Source of the DNA: Xanthobacteraceae bacterium | GTDB taxonomy: Bacteria; Pseudomonadota; Alphaproteobacteria; Rhizobiales; Xanthobacteraceae | Length of the DNA stretch: 64,000 nucleotides | Reading direction: 5' to 3' | Assembly (NCBI GenBank): GCA_024508855.1 | Contig: JANINJ010000026.1 | Location: 186,001-250,000 of the forward strand | Shown: positions 29,330 to 62,129 of the stretch, piece after piece | How the letters are laid out: each line of letters begins with the position of its first letter | Position numbering within the stretch: position 1 is the stretch's first letter | Notes under the pieces: generated by a model | What the model was told of the DNA's origin: nothing | The model's database searches: none | The model's input: the letters and a program-made list of their open reading frames with translations, nothing else | Position numbers and translations under genes: made by a program

Positions 29330-29533
29330 AGCGGGAAATGCTCCAAAAAGGATATCATTGCCAACACATCGGGTAGTCGGCGCAGGCTTTCAAGAGGTTC
29401 AATGCTATTCGCGTGCTCCGGTGTGGGTTATCGGACACGACCCATGAGAAACCCTTGAAATTGCCTTGCATCGTCCGTGCGGCTGCCCTAGTTGCTCGAA
29501 GGGAACAACCCCGTCTTTTCGTGAGGATAACCG

Positions 29534-58844: not shown

Positions 58845-60266
58845 TCAGCCGCGGGCGCGGATCGGTCGGAGCAGGAAGGCCGGGAGGTGAGAGTGATCGG
58901 CGGCTTCGGAGATGGATTCGCGCTTCTGCTGCGGAGCAAGGGTGCGGCCGATCGAGGGAGTCTCTGACACGGCTGCCGCCACCGGATGGCGCGGGGAGCT
59001 TGAACGCCCCTCGCTTGGGCGGCCTTCACCCGACCGGCGCGAACGGCGTCGCGGCTTGCGGCCATCGCGTTCGCGATGCTCGGCAGGAGCCTCATGGCTT
59101 CGTTCCGCATCAACGGCGGTTTCGGCTGGCGAAACTGCGGAGGGCGAAAGTTCGGCATGGGGAATTGGTTGCCCGATCAATCGCTCGATCGCGGCGATCG
59201 ACTTGTGGTCTGCAGAGTTGACGATGGAAATCGCCGTTCCGCTACGGCCCGCGCGGCCGGTGCGGCCGATGCGGTGTACGTAGTCGTCTGGATGGTGGGG
59301 AACATCGAAATTGAAGACGTGGCTGACTTCGGGAATGTCGAGACCGCGGGCGGCGACGTCGGATGCGACCAGCAGCGGAAGTTCGCCTTTGCGGAATTGG
59401 TCCAGTGCCGCCATTCGCGCGGTCTGGTCCATGTCGCCGTGCAGGGCGGCGACGCTAAATCCATGCTTCTGAAGCGATCGGTGCAGAAGCGCGACCTCGC
59501 GCTTGCGGTTGCAGAAGATGATCGCGTTCTTGAGGTCCTTGGCGTCCCGAAGGAGGCGTCGCAACGTCTCGCGCTTTTCGTGTGGCTCGCGGCCGGTCGA
59601 TACCTGGGACTGGGTGACGGTGACCGCGGTCGATGCGGGCTTGGATACTTCGACCTTCTCGGGATTATGCAGGAAGGTTTCGGTGACCCGGCGGATTTCG
59701 TTCGGCATGGTCGCCGTGAAGAACAGCGTCTGCCGGGTGAAGGGGACCAGTTTGCAGATCCGCTCGATGTCCGGGATGAAGCCCATGTCGAGCATGCGGT
59801 CCGCTTCGTCGATCACCAGCAGTTCGACGCCGGTAAGGAGCAGGCCGCCGCGTTCGGTGTGGTCGAGTAGCCGGCCGGGCGTTGCGATCAGAACATCGAC
59901 GCCGCGCGTCAGCTTGAGGTCTTGGTCGCCGAACGATACGCCGCCGATCAACAGGGCGACATTCAGTTTCTGTCCGACACCGTATCGGTCGAAGTTCTCT
60001 TTGACCTGCGCGGCCAGTTCGCGCGTCGGTTCGAGGATCAGGGTGCGCGGCATGCGGGCACGGGCGCGACCCTTTTCCAGTATCGTGAGCATGGGAAGAA
60101 CAAACGCCGCGGTCTTGCCGGTGCCGGTCTGGGCAATGCCGAGGACATCGCGACGGGCCAGGACATGTGGGATGGCTTGTTCCTGAATGGGGGTGGGGGT
60201 GGTGTAGCCGGTGGCCGCCACGGCGGCGAGCACCTTGTCGGACAAGCCGAGTTGAGAAAAGGACAT
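58845..60266 (-). CDS. DEAD-box RNA helicase, RhlE-like
   Basis: 473 residues from the ATG at 60266. Q motif GYTTPTPIQEQAIP, Walker A AQTGTGKTAA, DEAD motif VIDEADRMLDMGF, TAT motif in FFTATMPNE, and HRIGRTGRAGRSG all present. The C-terminal 90 residues are basic and Ser/Pro/Arg-rich (GRKPRRRSRRSGEGRPSEGR), as in RhlE tails that bind RNA. It remodels structured RNA, for example in ribosome assembly or cold adaptation. Confidence 0.93.
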   Translation of the reverse strand: MSFSQLGLSDKVLAAVAATGYTTPTPIQEQAIPHVLARRDVLGIAQTGTGKTAAFVLPMLTILEKGRARARMPRTLILEPTRELAAQVKENFDRYGVGQKLNVALLIGGVSFGDQDLKLTRGVDVLIATPGRLLDHTERGGLLLTGVELLVIDEADRMLDMGFIPDIERICKLVPFTRQTLFFTATMPNEIRRVTETFLHNPEKVEVSKPASTAVTVTQSQVSTGREPHEKRETLRRLLRDAKDLKNAIIFCNRKREVALLHRSLQKHGFSVAALHGDMDQTARMAALDQFRKGELPLLVASDVAARGLDIPEVSHVFNFDVPHHPDDYVHRIGRTGRAGRSGTAISIVNSADHKSIAAIERLIGQPIPHAELSPSAVSPAETAVDAERSHEAPAEHRERDGRKPRRRSRRSGEGRPSEGRSSSPRHPVAAAVSETPSIGRTLAPQQKRESISEAADHSHLPAFLLRPIRARG

Positions 60267-60620
60267 TGAGCCTCTGGTCGAATCCGCCGTCGTGATTCGC
60301 GGAAATTGGCTATCGCATTCGACCCCGGAACGGCACGCATAATTGCACGGGGGATACCGGAACACGATCAAGCGGCTTACCAGGGCATCGCGTTTCGATT
60401 GCCGGGCCGCGTCGTGGCGGAAGATAGGGCCGAAATGGCCAAAGTCAATGGACCGGGCGGCTATTTGCGCTGAAAACCTTAATGTTTTCGCCGGAAAACG
60501 CGTTTTCCGGCGGGTAATGATGCCGGCGGAGGGCGCATCGTGAACCGCTATGTTAAAGTCGGACACTACGACAAGAGACCTGTGCGGCCGCATGTCCGCG
60601 AAACGACTCGGGACTATCTG
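60267..60620. promoter_or_regulatory. divergent intergenic region between helicase and caspase genes
   Basis: About 350 bases with no gene (270 if the GTG at 60540 is used). It holds the 24-bp palindrome at 60489-60512 with a second inverted repeat just upstream (60473-60489). Both divergent promoters should be here. Confidence 0.55.
60489..60512. repeat. 24-bp perfect palindrome
   Basis: Half-site CGCCGGAAAACG followed directly by its reverse complement. It contains GAAAAC and GTTTTC, which also occur as an adjacent pair (60473-60478 and 60484-60489), giving four half-sites in 35 bases. It is operator-like, or part of a dispersed palindromic repeat. Confidence 0.7.
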
Positions 60621-62129
60621 GTGAAAATTCTGCGCTCCATCGTTGCCGTAACGCTCCTTGGGCTTGCCGTTATCGCTGCAAATCCCGCCTGCGCCGCGAA
60701 GCGTGTCGCTCTGGTCGTCGGCAACAACGACTATCGCAACGTCCCGAAGCTGCAGAAAGCCGTCAACGACGCCCGCACCATGGCCGATACGCTGAAGCAA
60801 CTGGGCTTCAACGTGATGATCGCAGAAAACCAGACCCGGAAGGCCTTCAGCCAGACGCTGCTGGCGTTCGATACCGCAATCGAACCGGGCGACACCGCGT
60901 TCTTTTTTTACGCGGGACACGGCTTCGAAATCGCAGGCCAGAACTACCTGCTGCCGACCGACGTTCCGGCCGCCACCGAAGGGCAGGAGGATCTCGTTCG
61001 CGACGCCTCGATCCTCGCCGACCGTATCGTCGAGCGCCTGCAAAACCGCGGGGCGCGCAGTTCGATCATCGTTCTCGATGCCTGCCGCAACAATCCGTTC
61101 GAGCGGACCGGTACCCGCGCTGTCGCCGGCCGAGGCGGTCTTGCACCGATGAACAGTTTACCGGAAGGAGTCTTTTCGGTGTTTTCGGCCGGTCCGCGCC
61201 AGACCGCGCTCGATCGCCTATCCAACAACGACACCGATCCCAATTCCGTTTTCACTCGCGCCTTTGCCAAAGAGCTCCTGCAACCGGGCGAGAACCTGGT
61301 CCAGATCGCCCAGCGCACGCGGCGTGTCGTCAGCGAGATGGCCGAAACCGTAAAGCACCGGCAAGTACCGGTTTACTTCGACCAGATGGTCGACGATGTC
61401 TTCCTCAACGGCACGGCCGCACCTAAGCCGATTGCTCAGGCTAATCCAGTTGAAGGCAAGACACAGGTTGCAGCGCTGCCGCCGATTTCCAGTCCAGCCA
61501 TCGCGCCACCACAGCAACAGCAGGAGAGCCTCAACGCGCCGATCGCGATGTTCTCCCGTCACAACGGCGGATGGACCGTGGTGTTCTCGATTGCCGATGC
61601 CACGCTCGGAATTTCATGGCGGTTAGGCGACAGCGGTGCATTCAAGGAGACCGGTTTCCTCGATCTGCTCGACCCTCGCACCCGGAAACGGATTCCCAAT
61701 CCTTCGATCGAGCTGCCCGCCGACGCACCGGCCGGGACCATCATGGTCCGTTACGTCGATGCCAATGGCGAAATTCAGGGACCGTTTCCGATCAGGTTCG
61801 ATCCCGAAGCAGCGTTGATCAAGGATCAGCGCAAAATCCTGGACATGACCGCCACTAGCTGGTTGTCGTTCAGCGAGTTCAATGGACTACTGGTCTATTA
61901 CACTCACCTGATGTCCTATCGCTGCGCGATCCGCGACGTGCGCATCGGTATCGACAGTGCTGTGCCGGACAAGGCGCTGAAATTGCCGCCATGTAATCCC
62001 AAGGATCCGATCTCGATTCCGTCCGACGTCACGCCGTATGTAAAGCTGCCGCCAGCCACCAAATCGGTGTCGGTCGAATTGACCTATCGCGACGGCAGCG
62101 TGTCCGAGATCAAGACCTTCCGCAGGTGA
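60621..62129 (+). CDS. exported caspase-like (C14) protein
   Basis: 502 residues from the GTG at 60621, which starts a good signal peptide (ILRSIVAVTLLGLAVIAANPACA); a GTG at 60540 would add 27 residues. The caspase p20-like domain has catalytic His100 in FFFYAGHGFEIAGQNYLLP and Cys155 in IIVLDACRNNPF. Residues about 270-310 are a Pro/Gln-rich linker, and the C-terminal domain (about 315-502) is beta-rich and not recognised. In alphaproteobacteria such periplasmic caspase homologues are widespread, but their substrates are mostly unknown. Confidence 0.88.
   Translation: MKILRSIVAVTLLGLAVIAANPACAAKRVALVVGNNDYRNVPKLQKAVNDARTMADTLKQLGFNVMIAENQTRKAFSQTLLAFDTAIEPGDTAFFFYAGHGFEIAGQNYLLPTDVPAATEGQEDLVRDASILADRIVERLQNRGARSSIIVLDACRNNPFERTGTRAVAGRGGLAPMNSLPEGVFSVFSAGPRQTALDRLSNNDTDPNSVFTRAFAKELLQPGENLVQIAQRTRRVVSEMAETVKHRQVPVYFDQMVDDVFLNGTAAPKPIAQANPVEGKTQVAALPPISSPAIAPPQQQQESLNAPIAMFSRHNGGWTVVFSIADATLGISWRLGDSGAFKETGFLDLLDPRTRKRIPNPSIELPADAPAGTIMVRYVDANGEIQGPFPIRFDPEAALIKDQRKILDMTATSWLSFSEFNGLLVYYTHLMSYRCAIRDVRIGIDSAVPDKALKLPPCNPKDPISIPSDVTPYVKLPPATKSVSVELTYRDGSVSEIKTFRR

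Follow-up and report, generated by a model that had tools for sequence, protein, structure and literature searches.

The region analysed lies in a window of 64,000 nucleotides (the whole stretch of DNA under study) from a Xanthobacteraceae bacterium. A gene for an rhlE-type DEAD-box RNA helicase is located on the minus strand and a gene for a Peptidase_C14 protein on the plus strand, confirming the divergent setting described in an earlier, sequence-only reading of this DNA. The region between them contains an inverted repeat, a 24-bp perfect palindrome and promoter-like sequences of both genes (Table 1, positions are those of the window).

Table 1. Genes and features of the rhlE-caspase region
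Feature	Position	Strand	Remarks
rhlE-type DEAD-box RNA helicase gene	58845-60266	minus	473 aa; start codon ATG 60266-60264
rhlE leader RNA, structured, probably pseudoknotted	60262-60414	minus	runs into the rhlE start codon; match of model R1 at G000:C26:246262-246414, minus
Pseudoknot, 3' strand GACGGC	60286-60291	minus	followed after 10 nt by the Shine-Dalgarno-like AGAGGC (60275-60270)
Pseudoknot, 5' strand GCCGUU	60329-60334	minus	
Leader stem P2, 5' strand CCCCG	60348-60352	minus	partner CGGGG, 60327-60323
Leader stem P1, 5' strand	60362-60371	minus	partner 60318-60310
rhlE promoter	60421-60448	minus	-35 TTGACT 60448-60443; -10 TATCTT 60426-60421
Inverted repeat GAAAAC-CTTAAT-GTTTTC	60472-60489	.	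element recurring upstream of the rhlE promoter; candidate operator
24-bp perfect palindrome	60489-60512	.	found only in the source species
Degenerate promoter-like motif of the caspase gene, TGAACC-N16-ACACTAC	60541-60569	plus	form TGAACC-N16-CGACTAY
Caspase-like (Peptidase_C14) protein gene	60621-62129	plus	putative signal-peptide-like start; listed open reading frame opens at 60540

The palindrome, CGCCGGAAAACGCGTTTTCCGGCG, is perfect over 24 bp as the sequence-only reading had claimed; no other perfect palindrome in the window exceeds 14 bp. The second inverted repeat reported to adjoin it was also confirmed. The four GAAAAC/GTTTTC half-sites are all present, but the pairs are not built alike: the spacer between the half-sites is 6 bp in the repeat and 2 bp in the palindrome. 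The distance between the two centres is 20 bp, approximately two helical turns. The palindrome had been considered rare by chance. This held under a random model, which predicts 0.0067 such palindromes per 64 kb and 0.54 per genome of 5.16 Mb, but not against related DNA, since the 80 named loci (579,399 bases of related sequence) contained five perfect palindromes of at least 24 bp, against 0.0 predicted by a first-order Markov model. The rate calculated from the related loci, about 0.55 per 64 kb, rests on five events. One 24-bp palindrome per window is thus unremarkable for such a genome, though unlikely in random sequence. Two of the five palindromes in the relatives are of the Br-REP1 type (L073:2789, 30 bp, and L090:4495, 24 bp).

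It had also been suggested that the palindrome might belong to a dispersed family of palindromic repeats, which was to be checked by counting copies in the genome and in relatives. No scattered copies were found. In the genome of origin (5,163,739 bases in 107 contigs) the core occurs once, and the dispersed-repeat interpretation was rejected. Allowing up to three mismatches, the 18-bp core matched its own site and one site with three mismatches; the reversed pattern, used as control, also matched two sites. The pattern CCGGAAAAN{0,16}TTTTCCGG (also written CCGGAAAA-N0-16-TTTTCCGG) gave a single match in this genome. REP-type repeats are present in many intergenic copies per genome, and membership in this class is ruled out by the copy number. 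A viral origin was not supported either: the exact 20-mer had no match in viral_contigs.

Among 391 genomes of the family, a set that includes only seven other genomes of the same genus, the exact 20-bp core was present in one, the source genome. The palindrome is absent from the corresponding place of the nearest relative (G040, taken to be locus L034), whose leader region and caspase gene are 85% and 83% identical, respectively. Preservation of the palindrome under changed letters was rejected by an inverted-repeat scan of 66 non-redundant loci with 30 shuffles each: the best stem beyond the upstream element was generally no stronger than in the shuffles (mean p 0.52). Stems with p ≤0.1 were detected in 14 of the 66 loci, the window included, about twice the 6.6 expected, and nine of these 14 loci carry a common TCATTT-type sequence distinct from the palindrome. 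Mean majority identity at the palindrome's place was 0.46 vs 0.42 in the far flank (50 non-redundant rows). No dyad conserved at the orthologous position was thus found in the relatives, and the proposal that the palindrome serves as an operator was not borne out, as it is conserved there neither in sequence nor as an inverted repeat. For the adjoining repeat the same proposal found some support, because this repeat recurs upstream of the rhlE promoter, although several relatives lack it or one of its arms.

The predicted rhlE promoter scored 9/12 in a promoter scan and is visible as a block in the alignment of relatives. A text pattern applied to 110 loci identified a promoter in 79 and none in 31. 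The pattern includes the letters of the -35 and -10 hexamers, therefore their invariance is circular and was not used; the upstream element lies outside the pattern. In 50 of the 80 named loci rhlE is within the fetched flank. The element, AAAASCTTAATGTTTT, was recognized with at most four mismatches, counted over the whole motif, in 54 of 66 non-redundant loci, with both arms recognizable. In 52 of these 54 it is at offset 22-23, i.e. 23-24 bases beyond the -35 hexamer of rhlE, whereas shuffled sequences matched likewise in 0.27% of the cases. Where the repeat is recognizable, its distance from the rhlE promoter is thus largely kept (52/54); in the other 12 of the 66 loci it is lacking or reduced to one arm. 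These counts come from related genomes and do not represent independent events. Of 198 family genomes, 16 contain the exact element, each in a single copy; 13 of the 16 copies fall inside a match to the rhlE region or at most about 25 bp away from it, and the other three are in genomes outside that search. Mean majority identity was 0.77 at the element and 0.42-0.53 around it (0.53 in the spacer towards the -35 hexamer; 50 non-redundant rows). Some loci whose fetched flank has no caspase gene carry the element as well, among them L004, L009, L012 and L031.

Conservation of the element is incomplete. In the source genus it was kept in L004 and lost in four of five relatives (L005-L008). L013-L015 and L019 have retained AAAACCTTAAT, or nearly so, and one arm is gone; because the missing part is the TTTT arm, dyad symmetry is not what is kept in these loci. 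The element is missing or degenerate in L018, L021, L030 and L032, and a japonicum-type clade has AAAAACCTGAGGTTTTT in its place. Symmetry in at least seven of eight pairs was found at a frequency of 0.167 vs 0.022 in shuffles, a modest excess, with 0.106 in the flank control. The losses of one arm argue against regarding the element as a strict dyad. As a general class, the dimer operators of divergent promoter regions are inverted repeats with a fixed distance to the promoter. The element resembles this class in its form and position, and differs from it in that one exact site per genome was found where there was any, and in that one arm is missing in some relatives. Its recurrence and position suggest that it is probably an element of the rhlE promoter and perhaps an operator. 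Binding of a protein, and activation by it, would be consistent with these features of the sequence. The element may instead be an A/T-tract feature of the promoter read directly by RNA polymerase.

A sequence resembling CCGTCATTTGGCNGTCAAAT was noticed approximately 15-40 bp beyond the element in L017, L022, L041, L054, L063, L065, L069, L072 and others. It carries direct GTCA repeats 11 bp apart and, in several loci, an inverted repeat as well, and we take it to resemble an OmpR/PhoB-type box.

The conserved region extends from the promoter into the leader of rhlE. A 481-bp query had matches in 57 of 149 family genomes, and most of the matches listed span the region from the promoter to the start codon. 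Alignment A1 was built from 29 non-redundant sequences out of 63 short leaders, leaving out 15 long ones (78 leaders in total). By visual inspection of A1 a structure was drawn that comprises one pseudoknot and four nested helices; its pairs were then counted on the same alignment. In this structure 93.2% of 781 cells were paired, compared to 31-52% when the partners were slid. Double-sided changes were found in five of 27 pairs, a number reached by two of 500 shuffles, and the covariation score was reached by none of 500. Sliding by -3 gave six pairs with double changes, exceeding the five observed, yet only 34.7% of the cells paired in that register. Helix 4 was only 77% paired, and the P1 pairing of the window seems to be shifted by one register in A1. 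Kinship among the sequences inflates these pair counts.

The pseudoknot GCCGUU/AACGGC was parsed in 77 of 78 leaders by a pattern that contains its four invariant pairs, so that only the two variable pairs were tested. These were standard pairs in the 77 leaders. In all 11 leaders carrying the C, a C-G pair replaced U-A, and seven of these are long leaders outside A1. A competing pairing of GCCGCC with GGCGGU was not supported beyond shuffles (55/500). The single-sequence fold of the window leader was no more stable than shuffles (z 0.52). Automatic consensus folding found an ATCG...CGAT hairpin and the GCCGU/ACGGC helix, and did not find stems P1 and P2; the program draws no pseudoknots and must choose. 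Model R1, applied with strict filters, detected a single copy in each of 50 genomes among the 149 of the family (48 strong matches and two near the threshold), and in an order-wide sample it matched four of 150 genomes, all four within the Xanthobacteraceae. In each of the 30 matches fetched out of the 50, rhlE is found no more than about 160 nt downstream, for the most part directly. The Rfam search of the window region gave only a sub-threshold match to a fly RNA (21.6 bits, gathering threshold 58) located over the palindrome, and the same search with three relatives gave none. The leader thus shows conserved base pairs with compensatory changes and is located before the same gene, indicating that it is probably a structured, pseudoknotted RNA of about 150 nt.

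On the other side of the region, the start of the caspase gene was reconsidered. Alignments with relatives begin at residues 20-54 of the longer reading, i.e. of the open reading frame from 60540, and the GTG at 60621, which would begin a signal-peptide-like sequence, is the more likely start. With a looser pattern allowing other spacings, 73 of the 80 named loci (L034-L113) showed a motif of the TGAACC-N16-CGACTAY type before the caspase gene. All 73 motifs have a length of 29, and shuffles matched in 0.19%. Loci that lack rhlE in the flank have the motif too. The strict form gave 12 matches in nine of ten genomes, seven of them just upstream of a caspase gene by coordinates; in the source genome and in G040 the sole exact copy lies elsewhere, and G043 has none. 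The only exact copy in the source genome is at 29373-29401 of the window, on the minus strand, and may be due to chance. The motif appears to resemble an ECF-sigma promoter.

On balance we lean, with slightly better than even confidence, towards a joint reading in which the repeat at 60472-60489 is a recurrent cis-element of rhlE and the palindrome a lineage-private, non-essential dyad. The element would most likely be the site of a DNA-binding protein acting on the rhlE promoter. Measured from the rhlE start that the -10 box predicts, its centre would be about 66 bp upstream, a position typical of activators, and for this reason a role as activator site would fit. The palindrome, unique and not conserved, would have arisen in the source lineage between the two divergent promoters, as long intergenic palindromes occasionally do in these genomes. 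It is most likely a private dyad without essential function and would do nothing important. The main conserved machinery would then belong to rhlE and comprise its promoter, the upstream element and the structured leader RNA. Confidence in the joint reading is lowered by the loss of the element within the source genus and of its TTTT arm in L013-L015 and L019. The operator idea of the sequence-only reading fits the repeat, which goes with rhlE, better than the palindrome. A dyad that stands out in one genome is not necessarily the functional site, and comparison favours its less striking neighbour.

Several other explanations of the palindrome were considered. It could be a recently gained second operator for the same dimeric regulator that would bind the recurrent element, two dimers then sitting two helical turns apart and coordinating rhlE with the caspase gene. 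The common half-sites, the 20 bp between the centres and the location between two divergent candidate promoters agree with this, and the common half-sites, together with the fact that a recently evolved operator may be functional though not conserved, caution against dismissing the palindrome. However, with spacers of 6 and 2 bp one dimer would not read both sites alike, no other searched genome has the palindrome, and an inverted repeat at this place is not general among relatives; we consider a second operator rather unlikely. Alternatively, the palindrome could be a transcribed hairpin, such as a terminator, or an element that stabilizes a transcript running across the region. Its RNA is predicted to fold into a hairpin, but it probably remains untranscribed because it lies upstream of both candidate promoters. 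In addition, a search of 60240-60720 for intrinsic terminators (a GC-rich stem followed by a T run) found none, and no hairpin is generally kept in the relatives, which makes this explanation highly improbable.

A third alternative is that the palindrome is an isolated member, or a relative, of a family of repetitive extragenic palindromes such as Br-REP1 (consensus CCGGAATCTCGAGATTCCGG), which, according to the available part of the description by Hahn et al. 2016 (PMC5082802), occurs at about 200 sites in Bradyrhizobium japonicum USDA 110. As far as that part of the description goes, both are perfect intergenic palindromes of related bacteria with a 20-bp core and the ends CCGGAA...TTCCGG, and Br-REP1-type palindromes are present in the related loci L073 and L090. 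The similarity ends at the inner bases. Each arm agrees with the consensus in its outer six bases, and the inner eight differ, with AACGCGTT here and TCTCGAGA in Br-REP1 (PMC5082802, available part), so that the palindrome was not assigned to the family. Searching the source genome for CCGGAA-N8-TTCCGG with at most one mismatch gave 35 sites, compared to 15 in the reversed control, and there was no Br-REP1 copy among the 35. The core, moreover, is single-copy, unlike Br-REP1. Kinship with Br-REP1, largely refuted by the copy number, is very unlikely. The preferred reading of the palindrome is still that of a private dyad.

The leader RNA, single-copy before rhlE and without a match in Rfam, is the most interesting part of the region. 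According to the available part of PMC5472812, the 186-nt 5' UTR of Caulobacter crescentus rhlE has several predicted stem-loops and is needed for maximal expression; an rhlE mutant gives higher expression of the fusion, and there is evidence that RhlE affects the level of its own mRNA. By description the two leaders are alike, both being long and predicted to be structured; they differ in that model R1 with strict filters matched only genomes of the Xanthobacteraceae family in the order-wide sample (4/150). Since the Caulobacter leader is required for maximal expression (PMC5472812, available part), control of rhlE through its leader is plausible here by analogy. The leader offers a testable case, in Bradyrhizobium and relatives, of a DEAD-box RNA helicase gene possibly controlled via the structure of its own message. 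One could go further and propose a two-layer device peculiar to the Xanthobacteraceae. In such a device the single-copy protein-binding element would set transcription, RhlE would control its own synthesis by unwinding the leader pseudoknot, whose 3' strand lies just before the ribosome-binding site, and in the source species the palindrome, as a new operator, would tie the caspase gene to the same regulator. We regard this combination as a long shot. In the literature searched, which was mostly of the non-subscription kind, no published description of this rhlE leader was found; the main text of PMC4842269 names neither rhlE nor helicase.

In L009, L011, L018, L019, L020, L021, L030 and L031 a palindrome-like insertion of approximately 50-60 bp is present between the leader and the rhlE start. 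In most of these loci it is flanked on both sides by AGAGGC, the likely ribosome-binding site of rhlE, and we assume from its appearance that it is a RIME/REP-type element.
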